Source: Xanthomarina spongicola (GTDB taxonomy: Bacteria > Bacteroidota > Bacteroidia > Flavobacteriales > Flavobacteriaceae). Taken from it: a stretch of DNA of 64,000 bases. The DNA lies in the NCBI RefSeq assembly GCF_003148645.1, contig NZ_QGGP01000001.1:496001-560000 (forward strand), in the 5' to 3' direction. The notes under the pieces are model-generated. The model did not search any database. It had not been told where the DNA came from and saw only the letters and a program-made list of their open reading frames with translations. The position numbers were made by a program, and so were the translations under genes. This document shows, one piece after another, positions 2,041 to 12,700 of the stretch (position 1 is its first letter; every line of letters begins with the position of its first letter).

Positions 2041-2508
2041 ATGGGAATAAAGAGTTTTCAAGGAGCAAGGAAGCAACAACAAAACACAACTGATGAAATG
2101 CCTTTTAAGGTAAGTGATATAATGTGCAAAGATCTTATAACTTTTAAACCAGAACAATCTGTTCAAGAAGTTATAGAGACACTTATAAATAATAAAATTT
2201 CTGGAGGTCCAGTTGTAAATGATAATAATGAATTAGTTGGAATTATTTCTGAAGGAGATTGTTTGAAACAAATAAGTGATAGCAGATATTATAATATGCC
2301 AATGGAGAGTGACAATGTAGAAAAGCGTATGATTAAAGATGTTGAAACAATTGATGGTAATATGAATGTGTTTGATGCTGCCAACAAATTTTTAGAGTCT
2401 AAAAGAAGACGATTTCCAATTGTAGAAAATGGGAAATTAGTTGGTTTAATCAGTCAGAAAGATATTTTAAAAGCTGCCATCGAGCTTAAAGGACATACTT
2501 GGAAATAA
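2041..2508 (+). CDS. Tandem CBS-domain protein
   Basis: A 155-residue soluble protein. After a polar tail of about 20 residues come two CBS domains (about residues 24-80 and 90-150), recognisable from VSDIMCKDLITFKPEQSV, GGPVVNDNNELVGIISEGD and the second-repeat RRFPIVENGKLVGLISQKD. CBS pairs bind adenosine nucleotides and usually act as energy-sensing regulatory modules. No catalytic domain is attached, so the partner is unknown. The gene is transcribed away from the M28 gene and converges on nadB with only 3 bp between stops. The ATG used is the first in frame after an AT-rich leader. An in-frame ATG at residue 20 would remove only the polar tail. Confidence 0.85.
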   Translation: MGIKSFQGARKQQQNTTDEMPFKVSDIMCKDLITFKPEQSVQEVIETLINNKISGGPVVNDNNELVGIISEGDCLKQISDSRYYNMPMESDNVEKRMIKDVETIDGNMNVFDAANKFLESKRRRFPIVENGKLVGLISQKDILKAAIELKGHTWK

Positions 2509-2511
2509 CAA

Positions 2512-4056
2512 TTAATTATCCACATTAAAATAACCACCTTTATTCTCTTTTCTATCTAAAGATTGACCAATAATTAAATGCGCCACATTTACCATGTTTC
2601 GTAACTCACAAAGTGTGGTGGTAATTTTAGACGTTCTGTAAAGCTCTTCAACTTCATTATAAATAACATCTAAATGTATTATCGCTTTTTTCAATCTGTT
2701 GTTACTTCTAACAATTCCAACATAATCACCCATTAAAGCTTGTAATTCTTTTAAGTTATGTTTTATTAATACATGTTCTTTTGGAATGCTAGTTCCATAA
2801 TCGTTCCAGTCTGGAATATGCTTGTTTTTTACCGAAATAGGATGATTGCAATGATATTTATAAATATTATGTGCATACACCAAAGCTTCTAATAAAGAGT
2901 TTGATGCTAATCTATTTGCACCATGTAATCCAGTTCTGGTACATTCGCCACAAGCAAATAAATTAGTAATGGAAGTTTTACCATTTGTATCTACTTCAAT
3001 GCCACCACATAAATAATGTGAAGCTGGAACTACTGGAATCCAATCTTTAGAAATATCTACATTATGCTCTAAACAAGTTTGATAGATATTTGGAAAATGA
3101 TTTTTAAAGGCTTCTAAATCTAAATGAGTACAATCTAAATACATACAGGAATCACCAGATTTTTTTAATTCTTTGTCTATGCTTTGAGAGACAATATCTC
3201 TAGAAGCTAATTCAGCTCTTTCATCATAGTTTGGCATAAATCTATCGCCATTTTTGGTTCTTAGGTAAGCGCCAAATCCTCTAACAGCTTCAGAAATTAA
3301 AAAGGCAGAACCTTCTGTATTTGTATATAAAGCTGTTGGATGAAACTGCACAAATTCCATATCTTTAATTCTAGCTTTAGCTCTATAAGCCATAGCAATA
3401 CCATCTCCTGTAGCAATAATTGGATTGGTGGTGTGTCCATATACAAAACCAATTCCACCTGCTGCTAAAACAGTACTATCTGCTTCAATAGTAAGAATAT
3501 TTCCGTTTTTTTGATTCAAGACATAAGCTCCATAACACCTAATATTTTCAGATACTTGTTTTAATTGGTGTTCGGTTATTAAATCAATGGCAAAATGATG
3601 TGTTAAAAGCGTAATATTTTCAAGCTGATGAACACGAGCCAACAATGCTCTTTCAATTTCGTAACCAGTTATGTCTTTGTGGTGTACCACTCGGTATTGA
3701 CTGTGTCCACCTTCTTTTCCTAAATCGAAATTTCCAGTTTGGTCTACATCAAATTGTGCTCCCCAAACCATAAGTTCTTTAAAACGTTTTGGGCCTTCGG
3801 TAATAACCATTTCCACAACAGTTTTATCGCATAAGCCATCGCCAGCAATCAAAGTGTCTTCTATGTGTTTTTGGAATGAGTCGGTTTTTTCGTCCAGAAC
3901 AACAGCAACACCACCTTGAGCATATTTAGTATTGGATTCGTCTTCGTTTCCTTTAGTAACAATCGTGATGTTTTTCTTTGGAAATTTTTCTGCAAATTTT
4001 ACAGCTAAAGTTAAACCTGCAACACCAGAACCAATAATAAGTAATTGGGTTTTCAT
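2512..4056 (-). CDS. nadB: L-aspartate oxidase
   Basis: FAD enzyme that oxidises L-aspartate to iminoaspartate, the first step of de novo NAD synthesis; it can use O2 or fumarate as electron acceptor. The 514-residue product starts MKTQLLIIGSGVAGLTLA, a dinucleotide-binding GxGxxG. It carries the typical TKYAQGG, EGGHSQYR, QFHPTAL and HGANRLASNSLLEA signatures of the succinate dehydrogenase/NadB flavoprotein family, and has a C-terminal helical domain. The open frame extends to 4089, but the extra 11 residues would overlap nadA. The ATG at 4056 lies just after the nadA stop at 4061 and begins exactly at the Rossmann fold, so it is preferred. It forms an operon with nadA. Confidence 0.95.
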   Translation of the reverse strand: MKTQLLIIGSGVAGLTLAVKFAEKFPKKNITIVTKGNEDESNTKYAQGGVAVVLDEKTDSFQKHIEDTLIAGDGLCDKTVVEMVITEGPKRFKELMVWGAQFDVDQTGNFDLGKEGGHSQYRVVHHKDITGYEIERALLARVHQLENITLLTHHFAIDLITEHQLKQVSENIRCYGAYVLNQKNGNILTIEADSTVLAAGGIGFVYGHTTNPIIATGDGIAMAYRAKARIKDMEFVQFHPTALYTNTEGSAFLISEAVRGFGAYLRTKNGDRFMPNYDERAELASRDIVSQSIDKELKKSGDSCMYLDCTHLDLEAFKNHFPNIYQTCLEHNVDISKDWIPVVPASHYLCGGIEVDTNGKTSITNLFACGECTRTGLHGANRLASNSLLEALVYAHNIYKYHCNHPISVKNKHIPDWNDYGTSIPKEHVLIKHNLKELQALMGDYVGIVRSNNRLKKAIIHLDVIYNEVEELYRTSKITTTLCELRNMVNVAHLIIGQSLDRKENKGGYFNVDN

Positions 4057-4060
4057 GTTT

Positions 4061-4987
4061 TTATTTTGAAAGTTCCAACATACGTTCAATAGGAATTAAA
4101 GCACGTTTTCTAATAGGCTCTGGAACTTCAATTTGTGGAGATTCGTTTAATAAACAATCGTATAATTTCTGCAACGTATTTACTTTCATAAATGCACATT
4201 CACTACAAGCACAGGTATTATCTTCTTCAGCAGGAGCAGGAATTAAAAGTGTATTTGGAACATCTTGCTGCATTTTATGAAGAATACCAGCTTCTGTAGC
4301 CACTATAAATTTTTCCTCTGGATGTTCTTTTACATAATTAATCATTCCAGCAGTAGAACCAATATAATTGGCGGCATCTAAAATATGTGCTTCAGATTCT
4401 GGATGTGCAATAATTTTTGAGCCTGGATGTTCGCTATATAATTTTAAAAGTTTATCTATTGAAAAGGCTTCATGAACAATACAAGAACCATCCCAAAGCA
4501 CTAAATCTCGACCAGAAATTTTACTAATATAATGCCCCAAATTTTTGTCTGGAGCAAAAATAATAGGTATTTCTTTCGGAACAGATTCTACAATTTTTAA
4601 CGCATTAGATGAGGTGCAAACAATATCGCTCATAGCTTTTATTTCAGCTGAGCAGTTTATATAAGTAATAACCAAATGGTCTGGATGTTTTTCTTTAAAA
4701 GCTTTAAAAGCATCAGGAGGACAAGAATCTGCTAAGGAGCAACCTGCTTTTAAATCTGGTAAAACCACTGTTTTAGTTGGGTTTAAAATTTTAGCAGTTT
4801 CTGCCATAAAGTGCACACCAGCAAATACAATAATATCTGCATCTGTTTCAGCTGCTTTTTGAGATAAACCCAAACTATCTCCAACATAATCTGCCACATC
4901 CTGAATTTCTGGCACTTGATAATAATGTGCTAAAATAACAGCATTCTTTTCTTTTTTTAAACGAAGGATTTCTTTTTTTAAGTCCAA
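4061..4987 (-). CDS. nadA: Quinolinate synthase
   Basis: Condenses iminoaspartate with dihydroxyacetone phosphate to quinolinate using a [4Fe-4S] cluster. The 308 residues match the short bacterial/thermophile-type NadA. Candidate cluster cysteines are C83 (AGCSLADSC), C169 (WDGSCIVHE) and one of the CACSEC group at 259-264. Conserved substrate-site stretches include [24 protein letters not shown] and [11 protein letters not shown]. It is first in the nadA-nadB operon. No nadC is visible in the window. A consensus -7 element and a palindromic operator candidate lie upstream (see 5020-5065), hinting at regulation by a CRP/FNR-type factor. Its Fe-S cluster is of a kind sensitive to O2 and NO, which fits the neighbouring nor locus. 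Confidence 0.95.
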
Positions 4988-5129: not shown

Positions 5130-5597
5130 GTGTTATCAAATGCTTGTCAATATGCAATCAGATCAATTCTTTATTTAGGAATGCGTTCTGATGAAGAACA
5201 TAAAATTGGAGTAAAGGTTATTTCTAAGGAATTAGAAGTGCCTCAACCTTTTTTAGCCAAATTGCTACAACAATTAAATAAAAGCAATCTAGTTACTTCT
5301 ACAAAAGGACCTTATGGAGGTTTTTATTTAAGTGAAACAAATAAACAACATACAGTTTGGGATATTGTTTCTCTAATTGATGGAAACGAAAAATTTAATC
5401 AGTGTTTTTTAGGACTATCTAAGTGTGGAGATGATAATCCATGTCCTGTTCATTTTACAGTTTCAGCTTTCAAACAAAAATTATTTCAAGATTTTAAAGA
5501 AAAAACTATAGCTGAATTTGTAGAAGAAATTAAATTGAAGGGTCGCTATATATCTTTAAAATCATTCGAAATCCTAAAACCGGATTCAGACTCTTAA
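5130..5597 (+). CDS. Rrf2 family transcriptional regulator with three cysteines
   Basis: A 155-residue winged-helix regulator starting at GTG (LSNACQYAIRS, typical of the family start). The helix-turn-helix is around residues 27-58 and the wing is TKGPYGGFYL. Cysteines C92, C99 and C105 (spacing CX6CX5C) are placed as in the Fe-S binding members IscR and NsrR, so it probably carries an iron-sulfur cluster. Its 3' end overlaps the tail of the last gene of the nor locus by 12 bp in convergent orientation. By analogy with NsrR, an NO-sensing role is attractive, but a role in Fe-S homeostasis is equally possible from sequence alone. A weak -7 (TATATTTA) is at 5109-5116. It diverges from nadA. Confidence 0.85.
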   Translation: MLSNACQYAIRSILYLGMRSDEEHKIGVKVISKELEVPQPFLAKLLQQLNKSNLVTSTKGPYGGFYLSETNKQHTVWDIVSLIDGNEKFNQCFLGLSKCGDDNPCPVHFTVSAFKQKLFQDFKEKTIAEFVEEIKLKGRYISLKSFEILKPDSDS

Positions 5598-6911
5598 ACT
5601 ATTTATTAGCTTTTTTAAGATTGGCAAACCAATGATGCTGATACTTGTAGTTAAAGCAATGCCAAAGACAAAAAACGCCATATATACCCAAAATAAACTG
5701 TCTTGCATATTAGAAAAAGAGGTGTCGTTTCCTGCGTACATCCAATGACTTCTTTTGGCACCTGCTACCAACAAAGCTGAGAAAAATAAAAAGAGTGTGA
5801 TGTTAAATCCCCAAAGACCTCGTTTTATAAGTGTTTCTTGTTTTTTAGAGAAAGCAGATATTTTTGAAACAATATACAAAAGTGAAGCAAAAAGAATGGT
5901 TGTGTTTATGCCAATAGTTGTTCCCATAGAATGTGCAACTGTAATATGCGTACCATGTGTAAAGAAGTTAATGGCTGGTATGGAGAATAATAAGGCAATG
6001 ATTAGATTGATAAATATCCAGAAATCGGTTGTTACTAAAAATCTATAAGCTAATGGATATGAGTCTTTTTTAGTCTGGCTTAGGTTTTTCTTCCAATCGT
6101 AAATCATATAACCTAAAATTATCCATTCGGTCATACTTACACCATAAGCTACATATCTTATCCATGGTTGAGTAGGTAGGATATAAGTGTGGTGAGCCCA
6201 ACCAAACATCAAGTTTGTTAACCCAAGAAAATAGAAAAAGAAGGCTAATTTACCTCTACCTATAGCATCATTTCCTTTTATTCTTGCCATAACGTAAATG
6301 GAAATTCCATAAACCAACATATTCCATGAACCAACGAAAGAGCCATAAGATTTCCACTGAACCGTTAAATCTTTTATAACATGTTCTCTAAAATATGGAA
6401 ATAACCATAGATGAGCTTCTGTTAAATGAATCATCATAAAAACAATTCCAGTTCCCCACATCCAGTAATATACAGGCCAGTTTTTAACTTGCTTCAACAT
6501 GGTTTTAAAATAATTAATTCCAAAAAGAAGCCAGCCAAATAAAATGGGAATTGTTAAAATAGGCGTAAAAGCTAAGTACTCTCTACCTTCCATTCTTCCA
6601 AAAATATAAGACAGATAGATGCCTAAACCAGTTATAAGAAATACAATTAAATGAAGCTTCATTAATTTGTTTGAAAACAATTTCAATTTTTCAATTTGTG
6701 TAAGGTAAAAATAGATGCTTCCAGTTGCACAAAGCACTATCCATGTAATAACTGTCGTAACATGAAAAGGTCTCATTTTATGGAATGGAATGAGTTCTTT
6801 TAAAAATTCTGGAATAAGATATTGTAAGGCTGCAAATAAACCAAAAAGCATTCCAGTAAGTAATGCTGAAAGTGCTGTGATTAAAAAGATGATTGCTGCT
6901 TTATTTTTCAT
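5586..6911 (-). CDS. NorB-like heme-copper oxidase subunit I homologue with altered metal ligands
   Basis: A 441-residue protein with about 12 transmembrane helices, clearly related to cNOR/cbb3 subunit I and to the first NorB of this locus. Conserved: H50 (RPFH, low-spin heme ligand in TM2), the pair H240-H241 (GWAHHTY) and H327 (VAHSMG, heme b3 ligand). Changed: ungapped alignment from the His-His pair puts Y189 and V193 where NorB has the FeB ligand H187 and the active-site E191. M329 replaces the second TM10 histidine, H329. The PEE motif after TM2 is also missing. NO reduction by the normal mechanism is therefore doubtful. It may be an electron-transfer or NO-sensing relative, or a diverged catalyst. 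It overlaps the upstream NorC-like gene by 11 bp, so the two are co-translated. Confidence 0.82.
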   Translation of the reverse strand: MKNKAAIIFLITALSALLTGMLFGLFAALQYLIPEFLKELIPFHKMRPFHVTTVITWIVLCATGSIYFYLTQIEKLKLFSNKLMKLHLIVFLITGLGIYLSYIFGRMEGREYLAFTPILTIPILFGWLLFGINYFKTMLKQVKNWPVYYWMWGTGIVFMMIHLTEAHLWLFPYFREHVIKDLTVQWKSYGSFVGSWNMLVYGISIYVMARIKGNDAIGRGKLAFFFYFLGLTNLMFGWAHHTYILPTQPWIRYVAYGVSMTEWIILGYMIYDWKKNLSQTKKDSYPLAYRFLVTTDFWIFINLIIALLFSIPAINFFTHGTHITVAHSMGTTIGINTTILFASLLYIVSKISAFSKKQETLIKRGLWGFNITLFLFFSALLVAGAKRSHWMYAGNDTSFSNMQDSLFWVYMAFFVFGIALTTSISIIGLPILKKLINSLRV

Positions 6912-7332
6912 TTTTATATTCTAGTTCAACCCAACCATTAGGTTTAAATTTGGCGTTATAATTTGGGTAATATCCTGTGCTGTCAATAAATTTCAGATAA
7001 GTTACTAACGCTTCTTTTTCAGCTTCTGAAAAATTAAATTTTGGCATGGCTTTTACACCACTATTCAGGAAGGCTTTTATGTATAAAGGACCTTTATTCT
7101 CTGCACTATATACATTTGTTAAATCTGGGCCTAAGTAACCACCTAATCCATAAGTTTGATGACAAGACCAACAATTATTTTCTTGCCACAAACGTTGACC
7201 ATGTAAACCTTGTTCTGTTAATTTTATTGGGTTTTCATTTTCATTAGACGTGTAAATTAACCCATTAAATACCACGAAAAGTGTTATTAAAATGGTGATG
7301 ATAAAAAAATTATATTTTGTTTTTTGAGTCAT
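6901..7332 (-). CDS. Second NorC-like membrane-anchored cytochrome c
   Basis: 143 residues: one N-terminal transmembrane anchor (about residues 9-28), then a periplasmic c-type cytochrome domain. The heme site is C54-W-S-C57-H58 and the likely sixth ligand is M96 in KAMPKF. The pattern WQENNCWSCH, followed by a glycine-rich loop and a LGPDLTNV stretch, closely parallels the first NorC at 12251-12700, including the anchor. It lies 1 bp after the NorF-like gene and overlaps the ligand-altered NorB-like gene, so it is the predicted electron-entry subunit of a second NorCB-type complex. Heme ligation looks intact, unlike its partner's active site. Confidence 0.85.
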   Translation of the reverse strand: MTQKTKYNFFIITILITLFVVFNGLIYTSNENENPIKLTEQGLHGQRLWQENNCWSCHQTYGLGGYLGPDLTNVYSAENKGPLYIKAFLNSGVKAMPKFNFSEAEKEALVTYLKFIDSTGYYPNYNAKFKPNGWVELEYKNEK

Positions 7333-7333
7333 C

Positions 7334-7570
7334 TTAAATAATTAAAACCAGACTAATAAAAATAGTTAAACAAGCAATTAATAATACTTTCCAAAAAACG
7401 TTTGCATGACGTAATTCCATAAAATAAAAAGCAACAGCTAAAAATTTTAAAGCAGATAGAATCATGATTAATTGAGAAGCATAAGTTATTTGCGAATTTG
7501 AAACGATTGCTGAAAGCAAGGTTAAAGCAATAAGTACAATTAATATATATAAAAACGGTTTCTGTTTCAT
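7334..7570 (-). CDS. norF: NorF-like / cytochrome oxidase subunit IV family membrane protein
   Basis: 78 residues with three hydrophobic helices (about 6-25, 29-50, 57-77) and the LRHANVFWK loop typical of the subunit IV/NorF group. It follows norE by 1 bp, matching the usual norE-norF order. NorF is a non-catalytic accessory subunit in denitrifier nor clusters. The family call comes mostly from length, topology and position, as sequence signal in such short membrane proteins is weak. Confidence 0.72.
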   Translation of the reverse strand: MKQKPFLYILIVLIALTLLSAIVSNSQITYASQLIMILSALKFLAVAFYFMELRHANVFWKVLLIACLTIFISLVLII

Positions 7571-7571
7571 T

Positions 7572-8159
7572 TTAAAAAATCAAATAAATTACAGGAAATA
7601 ACAATAGCCAAATTATATCGCACATGTGCCAAAAGGTAGCACTTGCTTCAACATCTTCTAATATGAGTTTCTTAGGATTTTTAACCATAGTTCTTAAAAC
7701 CGAAGCTAAAATGACTAAACCAACTAATACATGAATCACATGAAAAAGTGTTAACATCCAATAGAATGAATAAAATGTATTGTAACCCATGGTTAGTCCA
7801 GCATCAATTTTATCTAAATATTCTACAGTTTTTAAACCTAAAAACAGCAAACCTCCAAGCATGGTGAGTTTTAAGTATAATTTAGATTTGGCGATATTAT
7901 TAACTTTTAAATTGACAACAGTAAGCGCCATAAAAAACCCACTAATCAATAAAAATAAGGTGTTTATGGCTCCAAAGGTGGTGTTTAATTGTAATCTCGA
8001 TTGGTGAAAAAGTTCAGGTTCGTCTTTACTATACCAAACCATGGCTACCAATACTGCTCCAAATGTTAAAAGTTCTAGATAGATAATTATCCACATTAAA
8101 ATACCTCCAGGTGGATAAAGAATATTCTTAGAGTTATGTTGTTGAATGACTGTTGACAT
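7572..8159 (-). CDS. norE: NorE-like / cytochrome oxidase subunit III family protein
   Basis: 195 residues with five predicted transmembrane helices. It begins with YPPGGILMWIIIYLELLTFG, resembling the start of the COX3 fold, contains LFHVIHVLVGL (the conserved helix of subunit III), and ends ATFWHMCDIIWLLLFP, the classic WHFVDxVWLxLF-like motif. NorE proteins are short COX3 relatives that assist cNOR function. Its ATG overlaps the norD stop by one base (TAATG), implying translational coupling. It is a subunit-III homologue rather than part of an oxidase, because no subunit II with a CuA site is nearby. Confidence 0.82.
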   Translation of the reverse strand: MSTVIQQHNSKNILYPPGGILMWIIIYLELLTFGAVLVAMVWYSKDEPELFHQSRLQLNTTFGAINTLFLLISGFFMALTVVNLKVNNIAKSKLYLKLTMLGGLLFLGLKTVEYLDKIDAGLTMGYNTFYSFYWMLTLFHVIHVLVGLVILASVLRTMVKNPKKLILEDVEASATFWHMCDIIWLLLFPVIYLIF

Positions 8160-9928
8160 TAACTTTGATGTTTTATTTTTTCGTAGAGTTTTACTAAAGA
8201 TTGCAATAACTCTACTGGTGTTGTTAATATTTGATAATGGTTTTGCCCAAACATTTGTGGCAAATAGTATTTAGCTTGTGCTTCTATGGCCAAAGCATAC
8301 GAGTTAATATTGCGTTGGTTTAACTCACGAAGCGCTTGTTTAACATCGTTAATGCCATATTTTCCTTCGTATTTATCGTAATCATTTGGCTTTCCATCCG
8401 AGATTAAAATAACCCATTTGTTTTTTGTATCTCGTGCGTCCAGTAAAGCTCCTGAATGTCGCAATGCTGCTCCAATTCTGGTATAACCACTAGGTTCTAC
8501 AGCTCCAATTTTGTGTTTGGCTTTATCCCAAGTATCGTCAAATCCTTTTAGAGTGAGGTAGGTTGCGTAGTTTCTGGTTTTGGAATAAAAGCTTTGAATA
8601 GAAAAATCTACGTTGAACTCGTTTAAAATTTCACCAAAAATAATAGAGACTTGTTTTTCAACATCAATCACTTTATTTCCTCCAGCATAACCATCGCTAG
8701 AAAGGCTGACATCTAATAAGATTAAAATAGATAAGTCTTTATCTTTTTTGCGTTTTGAAAGGTAGATTTTTTCTGAAGGTGTATGGCCAGAATGAATATC
8801 TACATATAGATCTGTTATAGCATCTAAATCAAAATCTTCTCCTTGCGTTTGTCTGCGTTGTTGTTGGTATTTGTTATTAACAGAAGTCAGCATTTTACGC
8901 AACCCTGTTAAGGTAGATGCGTTTTTTTGAATTGTTTTTTTATAATAAGCAGAATCAGTTTCTACTTGTGTTTTTGGATACACCTTACAGAATTTGGATT
9001 TGTATTCACGTTTGGAGTAATCCCATTCGTCGTAAGCAACATGAGGTGCTTCTGTATCTAATTCGGCACTTTCAGAAATAGTTGTATTTTCAATAAATTC
9101 TGCTTGATAAATGGAGTGAACTGGATCGTCAACACGTACTGTATGTTTCATGTTGAGGTCTTCTAAAGCATTGGCATGATCGTCTAAATCGTCGTCGCCA
9201 TCAAAATCTCTCCAACCACCTTCCCATTCTTCAGCAGTTTCAATTTTTTCAAAATTATGTGTCATCACATAATCTTCTTGTTGTTTTTTATCTATTTCTA
9301 AAGACGTAATTTCCTCGACTGCATTGGCTTTTAAAATAGTGTTTATTTCGTGGTCTATGGCTTTTTTTACTTGTTCTGAAATGTTATTTAAAACAGATTT
9401 CTTTAAAGTTTGAGGATCATTGCGCATCCATTTTCCATAAATAAAGCTTAAATCTTCTGGTGTCTTCTCTGTTGCAAATTTGAAATAATGCGTAATTAAT
9501 TCCTGATGAATTTGCTTGGTTATTGGAAACTGCTGAAACATCTCGTTTAGAATTAAAGTTGAAGTTTCAAGCGCCTTTTCACGAGCAGTCTCTAAAGTAA
9601 ATTCATCTTCAGCTGTAAAATTTAAATTCAAGTTTTTTTGAACAGATAGATAAACAATTCTAAAAATATAAAATTTGGTGTTCTGCTCTAAGGTTTGAAA
9701 TTCTGAAAATCGAGTTGGTAAGAAGAAGCTATTGTTTTTATAACCACCTTCACGTTCGGCTTCAAATATTTCTATAGCTTGACCTGTTATAGCTCTAGAA
9801 AAAATAGTTAGCCGTTGCTTTATGTCTTTTAACTTAACGGCATGTTCGATTGTTTCTTGAGCATTTTTTTTACGACGCTTTAAAAACTTTACAATTTTAG
9901 AATAGATAAATTCATCTGGCTCGAACAT
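8159..9928 (-). CDS. norD: NorD, VWA-domain NOR maturation protein
   Basis: 589 residues. The N-terminal two thirds is helical and charged, with an acidic linker (about residues 225-260). A von Willebrand A domain fills the C-terminus. The MIDAS motif is D406-V-S408-L-S410 with SGYTRIG and ISDGKPND supplying the later metal ligands. NorD works with the MoxR-type ATPase NorQ to insert the non-heme iron or otherwise activate cNOR. It follows norQ by 10 bp and is coupled to norE. Length agrees with the NorD family. Confidence 0.92.
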   Translation of the reverse strand: MFEPDEFIYSKIVKFLKRRKKNAQETIEHAVKLKDIKQRLTIFSRAITGQAIEIFEAEREGGYKNNSFFLPTRFSEFQTLEQNTKFYIFRIVYLSVQKNLNLNFTAEDEFTLETAREKALETSTLILNEMFQQFPITKQIHQELITHYFKFATEKTPEDLSFIYGKWMRNDPQTLKKSVLNNISEQVKKAIDHEINTILKANAVEEITSLEIDKKQQEDYVMTHNFEKIETAEEWEGGWRDFDGDDDLDDHANALEDLNMKHTVRVDDPVHSIYQAEFIENTTISESAELDTEAPHVAYDEWDYSKREYKSKFCKVYPKTQVETDSAYYKKTIQKNASTLTGLRKMLTSVNNKYQQQRRQTQGEDFDLDAITDLYVDIHSGHTPSEKIYLSKRKKDKDLSILILLDVSLSSDGYAGGNKVIDVEKQVSIIFGEILNEFNVDFSIQSFYSKTRNYATYLTLKGFDDTWDKAKHKIGAVEPSGYTRIGAALRHSGALLDARDTKNKWVILISDGKPNDYDKYEGKYGINDVKQALRELNQRNINSYALAIEAQAKYYLPQMFGQNHYQILTTPVELLQSLVKLYEKIKHQS

Positions 9929-9938
9929 GATTTTTTAT

Positions 9939-10781
9939 TTAAATCATTAAATCACATAAATCTGATAAGGCTTCGGTAATTTCTGTGTCGTCTGTTAATG
10001 GCTCTACAACAGCCACACGAACAGCTAGACGTTTTCCTAAACCAGTATGTATTAGTTTGGCAGCATCCACCAATAAACGTGTGGAAACGGTTTCAGTTAA
10101 GCCAAGTTCAGTTAGGTTACGAATTTTATTAGCAATTGAAACTAATTTTTTAGCAATTGAAGCATCAATTTGTGTTTCGTTTACTAATATTTCAGCTTCA
10201 TCTTTTTCATTTGGATAATTAAAAGCTAGTGCTATAAATCGTTGTCTTGTTGAAGGTTTTAATTCTTTAAACCCTTTTTGATAGCCAGGATTAAAAGATG
10301 CGACTAGCATAAAATCTGGATGTGCTTTTATAGTTTCGCCCAATTTATCGATATACAATTCTTTTCTATGATCTGTTAAGGAGTGAATAGCTACAATAAC
10401 ATCTGGTCTGGCTTCGGCAATTTCATCTAAATAAATTACGGCACCTTTTTTTACTGCTTTTGTTAGAGGTCCATCTATCCAAACAGTTTCGGCACCTTTT
10501 ATAATATAACGACCAATTAAATCTGTTGATGAAGTCTCTTCATGACAAGAAATAGTAATTAATTCCTTCTCTAATTTATAGGTCATGTAGTCCACAAAAC
10601 GGGTTTTTCCAGTTCCAGTAGGTCCTTTTAAGAGTACAGGAATTTTATTTTTGTAAGCATGTTCAAACACTTCAATTTCTTTAGCTATTGGTTTATAGAA
10701 AGGTTTTATTGTGTTTGTATGTTGCATTTCTGAATTCAAATTAGTTGAGTTTATAGCTGAATTGACTATCGTTTTTGACAT
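9939..10781 (-). CDS. norQ: NorQ, MoxR-family AAA+ ATPase
   Basis: 280 residues. Walker A is GPTGTGKT (53-60), Walker B is VIYLDE (115-120), and the later FNPGYQKGFKELKPSTRQRF stretch carries sensor and arginine-finger residues as in CbbQ/NorQ. Forms an ATPase ring that, with NorD, matures nitric oxide reductase. It is separated from norB by a 119 bp gap that holds a good promoter (10846-10879), so norQ onward can probably be expressed independently of norCB. The product starts at the ATG at 10781; the first 25 residues are low-complexity and may be poorly conserved. Confidence 0.93.
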   Translation of the reverse strand: MSKTIVNSAINSTNLNSEMQHTNTIKPFYKPIAKEIEVFEHAYKNKIPVLLKGPTGTGKTRFVDYMTYKLEKELITISCHEETSSTDLIGRYIIKGAETVWIDGPLTKAVKKGAVIYLDEIAEARPDVIVAIHSLTDHRKELYIDKLGETIKAHPDFMLVASFNPGYQKGFKELKPSTRQRFIALAFNYPNEKDEAEILVNETQIDASIAKKLVSIANKIRNLTELGLTETVSTRLLVDAAKLIHTGLGKRLAVRVAVVEPLTDDTEITEALSDLCDLMI

Positions 10782-10900: not shown

Positions 10901-12244
10901 TTATAAATCGGATTCTAAATCTAAAGCTTCATCAGTTGGTTTTCCATGTTTTATAAAGTCCATGATATACATGATAATTCCTACTGTAAATAAAGTAGCA
11001 CAAAGAATTAATACCACAAAGTGTATACTAATTTCTGCTTGAACTTCCATAAAATCCATTTTGAATTTACGTTCAAGATATACTTGTGCAACACCTGCAA
11101 CACCAAAGGCAACTGTCATTCCTATCATTCCTACATTAGACATCCAAAAGGCTGCACGACCTACACTGCTATCGTATAATTTCCTTCCTGTCATATTTGG
11201 TAAAGCATAACTAATTATTGCAAGAACTATCATTGCATAAGCTCCCCAAAAAGCAAGGTGACCATGCATAGCAGTTACTAAAGTACCATGAGTATATAAG
11301 TTTGTTTGAGGTAAGGTATGTGCAAAACCTAATAATCCTGCACCAACAAAAGATACAATGGCAGAACCAAGAGTCCAGAATAAAGCTATTTTATTTGGAT
11401 GTTTCTTTTCACCTTTTCTATACATATTTACTGCAAACAATGCCATAGCTAAGAAAGCTAAAGGTTCTAGAGCAGAGAAAATACCACCAACAATTAACCA
11501 AATTTTATTTACACCAATGTAGTAATAGTGGTGACCAGTACCAAGAATACCAGATAGGAACGTTAATCCTACAATAACATAAAGCCATTTTTCGATAACC
11601 TCTCTATCGACACCAGTAAGTTTTATTAATAGAAAAGATAAGATACCTCCCATTATTAGTTCCCAAACACCTTCAACCCATAAGTGAACAACCCACCATC
11701 TAAAGAATGAATCTGTTACTTGACTATCGAAAGGAAGCATTCCAGGAATATATAGCAAAGCTGCAAACAATAATCCCATTGTAAGCACTAAAGCTGTAGT
11801 AGTTTTACGTTTACCTTTAAAAAGCGTTGCTAGAATTAGTCCCAAAAATAAGAGGACATTTACAACTACAAGATAATCTAATTGTCTAGGTATTTCTAAG
11901 AATTTACGTCCTTCCCACCAGTTAAAATGATAACCAATAACAGCAGCAACACCAACAACAGCAAGTGAAATTAATTGAACATAAGCCAATTTAACACTAA
12001 CTAATTCGCGTTGTGCTTCTTCTGGGATAATGTAGTATGCTGCTCCCATAAAACCGGAAAGTAACCATACAACTAATAAGTTTGTGTGCACAGCTCTTGC
12101 TGTGTTAAAAGGAATAAATTCATGGAGTCCATCGAATCCAATACGAGCAAAACCCATAATAAATCCGTAGGTAATTTGTAAAACGAGTAGTAGCATTGAA
12201 AAGGCAAAAAACCAATAGGCTACTTTTTGTGATTTATATTTCAT
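10901..12244 (-). CDS. norB: Nitric oxide reductase large subunit, canonical cNOR type
   Basis: 447 residues with 12 transmembrane helices. All expected ligands are present: H53 (low-spin heme, TM2), H187 and E191 in HLWVEGVWEL (FeB ligand and active-site glutamate), H238-H239 (FeB), H327 (heme b3) and H329 (low-spin heme) in MHGHLAF. The YYIIPEEAQREL motif after TM2 matches the calcium-region glutamates of cNOR. There is no N-terminal quinol-oxidase extension, so this is the cytochrome c-dependent form. It reduces 2 NO to N2O at the membrane. It is co-transcribed with norC, 6 bp upstream. No nirS/nirK or nosZ is visible, so detoxification or partial denitrification are both possible. Confidence 0.95.
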   Translation of the reverse strand: MKYKSQKVAYWFFAFSMLLLVLQITYGFIMGFARIGFDGLHEFIPFNTARAVHTNLLVVWLLSGFMGAAYYIIPEEAQRELVSVKLAYVQLISLAVVGVAAVIGYHFNWWEGRKFLEIPRQLDYLVVVNVLLFLGLILATLFKGKRKTTTALVLTMGLLFAALLYIPGMLPFDSQVTDSFFRWWVVHLWVEGVWELIMGGILSFLLIKLTGVDREVIEKWLYVIVGLTFLSGILGTGHHYYYIGVNKIWLIVGGIFSALEPLAFLAMALFAVNMYRKGEKKHPNKIALFWTLGSAIVSFVGAGLLGFAHTLPQTNLYTHGTLVTAMHGHLAFWGAYAMIVLAIISYALPNMTGRKLYDSSVGRAAFWMSNVGMIGMTVAFGVAGVAQVYLERKFKMDFMEVQAEISIHFVVLILCATLFTVGIIMYIMDFIKHGKPTDEALDLESDL

Positions 12245-12250
12245 AGTTAG

Positions 12251-12700
12251 TTAGTTTTTATTTCTTTCAATTTTGTCTTTAGCTAAAGGAGAGACTACAG
12301 TATCAAATCCGTTTAGATCAATGCCTCCAATCCAATCAAAGAAAGCTATTAGGTCATCAGCTTCTTCTTTTGTAAAACCGTAAGCAACCATTTTCCTCCC
12401 ATTAGGATTCCAAGGAATAGGAGACATTAATACAGCTTTAACGTAACCTTCGCCACGACGATCTAGTACTTTTGTTAATTCTGGAGCGTAGTAAGCTCCC
12501 TCACCTAAAATAGTATGGCAACCCATACAATTGTTTTCTTCCCATAACACTTTACCTCGAACTACCTGTTCGGTAATACCTTCGTGGTTGGTTTGGTCTT
12601 GACTTTTACTAAAAGAAAAAATGGTTAATCCTATAAAAATTAAGAATGTAACCACAGTACCTCCAAGGAAAAAAGCACGTGCTTGTTTTTTTGATAACAT
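12251..12700 (-). CDS. norC: Nitric oxide reductase cytochrome c subunit
   Basis: 149 residues: an N-terminal transmembrane anchor (about residues 8-30), then a cytochrome c domain with C58-M-G-C61-H62 and the probable axial ligand M104 (GRKMVAYGF). The WEENNCMGCHTILGEGAYYAPELT stretch, given here in pieces, is diagnostic for NorC. It passes electrons from periplasmic donors to NorB. It is the first gene of the leftward nor locus, with a consensus -7 element and a CRP/FNR-like palindrome upstream. Confidence 0.95.
   Translation of the reverse strand: MLSKKQARAFFLGGTVVTFLIFIGLTIFSFSKSQDQTNHEGITEQVVRGKVLWEENNCMGCHTILGEGAYYAPELTKVLDRRGEGYVKAVLMSPIPWNPNGRKMVAYGFTKEEADDLIAFFDWIGGIDLNGFDTVVSPLAKDKIERNKN

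Follow-up and report, generated by a model that had tools for sequence, protein, structure and literature searches.

A conserved NorC-NorB-like pair with a changed ligand set at the end of the Xanthomarina spongicola nor operon

What is the role of a second NorC/NorB-like pair, with substitutions at expected heme and metal ligands, in a locus that already encodes a canonical nitric oxide (NO) reductase? The question arises from a 64,000-nucleotide stretch of the Xanthomarina spongicola genome (the window), in which a NorC-like cytochrome and a NorB-like subunit, here given the working names NorC2 and NorB2, are encoded by the last two genes of an operon with the order norC-norB-norQ-norD-norE-norF-norC2-norB2. 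An earlier sequence-only reading had noted this extra pair, which the open reading frames (ORFs) and gene order confirm, and had proposed a separate complex with a changed ligand set acting as an electron shuttle, a sensor, or a catalyst. The separate complex is borne out by conservation in 81 members, and the choice among the three roles is not settled by sequence. NorC2-NorB2 is best read as a cytochrome-c-linked NO-handling enzyme, most likely an NO reductase (NOR) or a detoxifier, an activity that we infer.

Ligand residues, clade, and selection

The NorB2 proteins compared here are those of the window and the ORFs of 80 related loci in Bacteroidota and Pseudomonadota (81 rows, some cut or overlong); short-pattern searches gave 95 relatives, and retaining the 80 best among them biases the set toward close ones. 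The 81 rows were aligned with 17 NorB rows of cNOR (one is cut), and Pseudomonas aeruginosa equivalents are given in parentheses; for the histidines and Tyr73 these are the numbers that we take to apply, with positions consistent with the chain alignment. Four of the six histidines that form the signature of the heme-copper superfamily (excerpt of PMC3413370) are kept, with H50 (60) present in all 80 rows having the residue, and the His-His pair H240 and H241 (258 and 259) and the high-spin-heme ligand H327 (347) each in 81/81. The calcium ligand E111 (Glu135) is also invariant (81/81), and Y67 (73) is found in 76/81. The remaining two histidines are replaced. Position 329 (His349, the second low-spin-heme histidine) is Met in all 81 rows, and position 189 (His207) is Tyr in 55, Gly in 13, Thr in 10, Val in 2, and Leu in 1, with no Asn in any. 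Relative to the canonical NorB of the window, Tyr189 stands at the FeB ligand His187, Val193 at Glu191, and Met329 at His329, and our alignments agree with the sequence-only reading on these substitutions and on the four histidines kept. There is no histidine anywhere in transmembrane helix 6 (TM6) of any of the 81 NorB2 rows, so the loss is independent of the alignment register, on which phmmer and profile alignments to cNOR concur at the TM6 GxW motif; a histidine at the FeB position, which would have refuted the sequence-only reading, was not found. H50 and Met329 would together form a His/Met low-spin heme site.

Three glutamates of cNOR are likewise lost, with no Glu in any of the 81 rows at the Glu211 position (Val193 of the window; 44 Val, 36 Thr, and 1 Ile), the Glu215 position (Asn in all 81), or the Glu280 position (79 Thr and 2 Ser). 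The Glu138 position is variable (35 Ala, 34 Glu, 5 Ser, 4 Val, 2 Thr, and 1 Met). The P. aeruginosa numbers and roles of these glutamates, including Glu135 at the calcium site between the hemes, are from an excerpt of PMC3431322. We note that the canonical flavobacterial NorB, as in the window, has a lysine (Lys114) at this calcium-ligand position in 16/16 rows having the residue.

A role for Tyr189 as substitute ligand was considered and rejected, as the position is variable. In a thinned alignment (A1) of 70 rows, comprising the window and 69 of the 80 loci, Tyr is present in all 18 Pseudomonadota rows, and the 52 Bacteroidota rows have 34 Tyr, 11 Gly, 4 Thr, 2 Val, and 1 Leu; Tyr189 may be ancestral yet dispensable. 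(A1 omits L082, which has stop codons, L058 and L080, cut by contig ends, and, against redundancy, L023, L025, L027, L028, L032, L033, L035, and L045.) Across the two phyla 58 of its columns are invariant, and the family-specific ones include E165, K187, G190, G194, N197, Y201, N233, W238, Y243, R252, Y256, M260, E262, N302, and N336; H322 is present in 80/81 rows of the larger set.

Phylogeny sets NorB2 apart. In a 54-row tree NorB2 forms one clade (support 100/99) and the cNOR and qNOR-like rows another (100/99), and a tree constrained to group NorB2 with cNOR is rejected (p-AU 0.0048). The exact placement of NorB2 is provisional, since long branches are flagged by the tree program and cNOR does not come out as a single clade, two Woeseiaceae NorB rows standing apart (92/62). 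Against four near relatives the ratio of nonsynonymous to synonymous substitutions (dN/dS) is 0.048 to 0.066 for NorB2 and 0.018 to 0.028 for NorB, both rough in that dS is often >1, and NorB2 is the faster evolving of the two (88 to 94% versus 97 to 99% identity). Values of about 0.05 to 0.07 speak against a single degraded copy, an outcome that the sequence-only reading had named as refuting it. The separate clade and the ligand losses are well supported.

An AlphaFold2 model of NorB2 has a mean predicted local distance difference test (pLDDT) score of 88.8 and a predicted template modeling score of 0.92. Its best folds in the PDB by Foldseek are cNOR (TM-score 0.83 to 0.86), with cbb3 oxidase next, and profile comparison ranks them similarly (cNOR, E value 5.8e-26; cbb3, 1.9e-15; qNOR, 7.2e-5). 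NorB2 exceeds no NCBIfam cut-off, the best match being CcoN at 39.8 of the 583 bits needed, and its 441 residues lack the qNOR N-terminal domain.

The maturation of NorB2 may also differ. FeB insertion into cNOR requires NorQ and NorD, and exchanges of D220 and E222 in Paracoccus denitrificans NorB give an inactive cNOR without FeB (excerpt of PMC9976466). By the numbering offset of 13 (Glu135/Glu122) and the chain alignment, these residues are D213 and E215 of the window NorB. NorB2 has Asp in 27/81 and Glu in 14/81 rows at the D213 position, and Glu in none at the E215 position (21 Val, 17 Ile, 15 Tyr, 10 Leu, 5 Met, 4 Phe, 3 Pro, 3 Ala, 2 Ser, and 1 Thr). Because this NorD contact is never Glu, NorB2 may well be loaded without NorQD, in keeping with its lack of a conventional FeB.

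Partner cytochrome and gene neighborhood

NorC2 is a one-heme cytochrome by its Pfam match, with CxxCH at residues 54 to 58 and Met96, and both features are conserved among its relatives (78/79 and 79/79 rows, respectively). It is encoded directly upstream of norB2 in 77 of the 80 loci by script and in 78/78 where the upstream DNA is visible, as L058 and L080 start inside norB2 and L074 has NorC2 with an overlong NorB2 ORF; the partner is therefore kept wherever it can be seen. The position directly after norF is found in only 6 of the 80 related loci and is not a rule. In the window (Table 1) norC2 and norB2 overlap by 11 bp, and the 3' end of norB2 overlaps the Rrf2-family gene by 12 bp. The X. 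spongicola genome codes for four COX1-family proteins in total.

Table 1. Genes of the nor operon and its flank, in window positions
Feature	Position	Strand	Match or basis of name
norB2 (working name), NorB-like subunit, 441 aa	5586-6911	-	COX1 family (PF00115), 110.4 bits versus cut-off 34.8
norC2 (working name), NorC-like membrane-anchored cytochrome c, 143 aa	6901-7332	-	Cytochrome_CBB3, 42.9 bits
norF (COX4_pro), upstream of norC2, same operon	7334-7570	-	Pfam match
norE (COX3), upstream of norF, same operon	7572-8159	-	Pfam match
norD, cNOR maturation	8159-9928	-	Operon position and homologues, not library scan
norQ, cNOR maturation	9939-10781	-	Operon position and homologues, not library scan
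norB, canonical cNOR catalytic subunit with full histidine set (comparison protein)	10901-12244	-	COX1, 213 bits
norC, canonical cNOR cytochrome c subunit	12251-12700	-	
Rrf2-family regulator (NsrR/IscR-like), convergent with norB2	5130-5597	+	Rrf2, 88.6 bits
nadA-like (quinolinate synthase), conserved neighbor in Bacteroidota	4061-4987	-	By eye
nadB-like (L-aspartate oxidase), conserved neighbor in Bacteroidota	2512-4089	-	By eye

Neighbors were counted within at most 8 kb of norB2, with ric, nad, nrd, Lrp, CtaA, and HemN names assigned by eye. The 61 Bacteroidota loci, which include one metagenome-assembled genome (MAG) titled Chlorobiota (L011), have nadA in 39, nadB in 39, Rrf2 in 34, norD in 23, norE in 21, ric in 20, norB in 17, nrdD in 10, and nosZ in 2. 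The 19 Pseudomonadota loci have an Lrp-type gene in 16, a CtaA-like gene in 6, and a HemN-like gene in 4, and none has nor, nadAB, Rrf2, or ric genes within that distance. In 21 loci (e.g., L013, L038, and L092) nadA is codirectional with norB2 and lies no more than about 130 nucleotides downstream of it, and this arrangement suggests a norC2-norB2-nadA-nadB operon. NadA is an iron-sulfur enzyme, and it is possible that the link of nadAB to norB2 is through damage to the NadA cluster by NO.

Several other features of these neighborhoods were seen. The Rrf2 protein of the window is above the NCBIfam cut-off for rrf2_super and below that for the NsrR model, and by eye it has three cysteines with the spacing of cluster binders of the NsrR/IscR type. 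A conserved gene of about 600 codons (cluster C11; L011 positions 2098-3900), is near norB2 in 17 of the 61 Bacteroidota loci. In three Pseudomonadota loci (L106, L107, and L108) an Lrp-type regulator gene points away from norC2, and next after it comes a heme A synthase-like (CtaA) gene. Three Woeseiaceae-family assemblies of 1.2 to 1.8 Mb (L106, L107, and L109) keep norC2-norB2 without NirS, and by eye the pair adjoins iron(III) ABC transporter-like genes.

Carriers and their denitrification genes

Among 199 Flavobacteriaceae genomes, NorB2 is present in 9, cNOR in 25 (E <1e-200), and NosZ in 98. The carriers are enriched for cNOR (6/9, p 1.4e-4) and for nosZ (9/9, p 0.0014), and NorB2 therefore goes with nitrogen-oxide metabolism in this family; three of the nine have no cNOR. 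A phylum-wide sample of 296 genomes has six matches at 1e-20, three of them full-length, with the others cut by a contig end (G477), partial (G381), or weak and doubtful (G438). In the Woeseiaceae family of G504, 27 of 107 genomes are carriers (E <1e-170; next match, 8e-20).

We surveyed 52 carrier genome handles representing 51 distinct genomes (G075 and G519 share contig and coordinates), 36 from Bacteroidota and 15 from Pseudomonadota; many are MAGs, and those reached via the loci have no completeness value. The NorB search found cNOR in 15 of the 51, a long protein of qNOR type in 5 (including one that also has cNOR), and a cNOR-like fragment in 1, and detected neither cNOR nor qNOR in 31. 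NirK is above its cut-off in 18/51 and NirS in 11/51. Eleven of the 31 carriers without detected cNOR or qNOR (G024, G488, G503, G504, G505, G509, G511, G513, G514, G518, and G525) have nirK or nirS, and in two, Aequorivita aquimaris (G024) and A. viscosa (G488; L036), both nirK and nosZ are present and NOR is the sole denitrification step unaccounted for. NosZ (PF18764) is present in 28/51 carriers, all Bacteroidota, and a full NosZ query has no match in the other 23. A general tie to NosZ was considered and is rejected, as NosZ is absent from all 15 Pseudomonadota and from 8 of the 36 Bacteroidota carriers.

Sediment Woeseiaceae are reported with NirS/NirK and/or NorBC (excerpt of PMC12175321), and Woeseiales nirS transcripts have been found in Arctic sediment (excerpt of PMC7451513). 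A tie of the NorB2 pair to nirS was tested in the Woeseiaceae set and not found (11/27 carriers versus 45/80 others, p 0.19). Gene arrangements vary: G536 has the NorB2 pair together with cNOR-like norCB beside nirS, in G531 norCB adjoins nirS and NorB2 has no match of carrier strength, in G504 and G505 no norCB lies next to nirS, and assemblies of 1.1 to 2.0 Mb carry NorB2 without NirS. A cNOR-like norCB is also seen beside nirS and a TonB-receptor-like gene in two Woeseiaceae-family loci (L102 and L103), and in two others (L104 and L105) nirS and the TonB-receptor-like gene are present and norCB is not there.

Candidate functions and relation to known systems

Our preferred reading, to which we give a probability of roughly 45%, is that NorC2-NorB2 is a distinct, functional two-subunit C-type heme-copper complex that would consume NO, as a detoxifier or a stand-in NO reductase. 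Electrons from the cytochrome c pool would enter at heme c of NorC2 and pass through the putative His/Met low-spin heme b to the high-spin heme, where NO would bind beside the distal His-His pair without a third histidine, and possibly without a metal, to be reduced or otherwise consumed. Such a complex would serve in detoxification, or in place of an NO reductase, in nitrogen-oxide-metabolizing bacteria that often have no cNOR.

Several points weigh against NO consumption. Glu211 and Glu280, both lost in NorB2, are critical for cNOR activity (excerpt of PMC3431322), and NorB2 also lacks one B-metal histidine. The distal-site surroundings are the weakest part of the predicted structure (mean pLDDT 57 for residues 181 to 190 and 59 for residues 241 to 250), and the canonical NorB model, built from 15 near-identical rows with a pLDDT of 49.9, is not a fair control for confidence at this site. 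Neither NirK nor NirS is found in 22/51 carriers, NosZ is missing throughout the Pseudomonadota carriers, and the pair is not linked to nirS in Woeseiaceae. The search for alternatives in carriers covered cNOR and qNOR.

We also entertain, more tentatively, the bolder proposal that NorC2-NorB2 is a separate superfamily class consuming NO with a His/Met heme and a distal site that has two histidines or is metal free (with Lys187 and Glu262 acting in place of the metal), and that it is matured without NorQD and fills the gap in genomes with nirK or nirS and no known nor gene.

Less probable than the preferred reading is a noncatalytic or barely catalytic heme complex without a B-metal site, acting as an NO or O2 sensor, a buffer, or an electron relay. 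This would account for the loss of the TM6 histidine, the catalytic glutamates, and the NorD-contact Glu, and regulators are common nearby (Rrf2 in 34/61 Bacteroidota and Lrp-type in 16/19 Pseudomonadota loci), but a heme-only protein would not need the His-His pair that is kept in 81/81 rows, and there is no fused signaling domain, as Pfam gives only COX1 for NorB2 and cytochrome c for NorC2. A different reaction or direction, such as the oxidation of NO to nitrite coupled to cytochrome c reduction, or the reduction of O2, is unlikely though well worth weighing: the invariant Met329 would suit it by way of a high-potential His/Met heme, as would the 22 carriers without either Nir, including the small Woeseiaceae assemblies, whereas the enrichment of Bacteroidota carriers for cNOR and nosZ speaks against it and no residue change indicates a particular other substrate. 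That the pair serves cNOR in an accessory or regulatory capacity is very improbable. It does share the norCBQDEF operon in the window, and norB lies in the fetched stretch of 17/61 Bacteroidota loci, but NorB2 has its own NorC-like partner, and the carriers without cNOR (3/9 in Flavobacteriaceae), together with the 31/51 without detected cNOR or qNOR, reject an obligate accessory. A decaying norB duplicate, to which the faster evolution of NorB2 might have pointed, is ruled out for practical purposes by the low dN/dS, the 58 invariant columns over two phyla, and a clade of its own that does not group with cNOR.

The NO-consuming complex that we prefer is closest to cNOR (PDB 3o0r and 4xyd), with which it shares the two-subunit organization of a NorC-like cytochrome and a 12-TM-type NorB-like subunit, the best fold and profile match, and H50, H240, H241, H327, and the calcium-site Glu111. 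It differs in having no TM6 FeB histidine and no Glu at the 211, 215, and 280 positions, in the Met that replaces the low-spin-heme histidine, in the missing NorD-contact Glu, and in its separate clade; NorC2-NorB2 would thus work like cNOR, but on ligands and tree it falls outside that family. The sequence-only statement that three FeB/CuB histidines are kept throughout the known families needs a qualifier, namely the putative NO dismutases (Nod), in which a coordinating His is changed to Asn and a nearby Glu to Gln (excerpt of PMC3413370). Nod resembles NorB2 in the loss of one coordinating histidine and the change of a catalytic Glu. In contrast to NorB2, it is a single qNOR-like chain with a His-to-Asn change that is thought unable to take external electrons; NorB2 is paired with a cytochrome c subunit, shows no consensus polar substitute for the histidine, has Met in place of a second histidine, and stands apart from qNOR-like rows in the tree. 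The cbb3 oxidase subunit CcoN is of the same superfamily type, with the next-best folds and the sub-cut-off NCBIfam match, but the aligned CcoN has the TM6 histidine that NorB2 does not; no CcoO or CcoP neighbor was noted in the listed loci, for which no dedicated search was made. The eNOR, sNOR, gNOR, and CuANOR classes also replace the cNOR active-site Glu (by Q, N, D, and N, respectively; table A4 in an excerpt of PMC8756737), but as described there sNOR, gNOR, and eNOR have a cupredoxin-type second subunit, whereas that of NorB2 is a c-type cytochrome. No earlier account of a family without both the B-metal and the low-spin-heme histidine was found in the literature searched, which did not include Murali et al. 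on NOR diversity, and NorC2-NorB2 is apparently an undescribed, separate conserved complex with a changed ligand set.

These proteins bear on how genomes are read. A survey of oxygen-deficient zones reports that the majority of nir-carrying MAGs have no nor and suggests unknown routes of NO removal (excerpt of PMC10359470). The Nor database of a genome survey holds seven NOR classes and other heme-copper oxidases, with sequences lacking conserved ligand-binding domains curated away (excerpt of PMC12569097), and such curation would probably drop the NorB2 family. If NorB2 consumes NO, some readings of genomes as having nir without nor, or as reducing N2O only, would need revision, and NO chemistry would not depend on a three-histidine B-metal site. 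Should NorB2 not consume NO, the family would be a heme-copper scaffold that nature has conserved with its B site stripped, in which the purpose of the metal can be tested.

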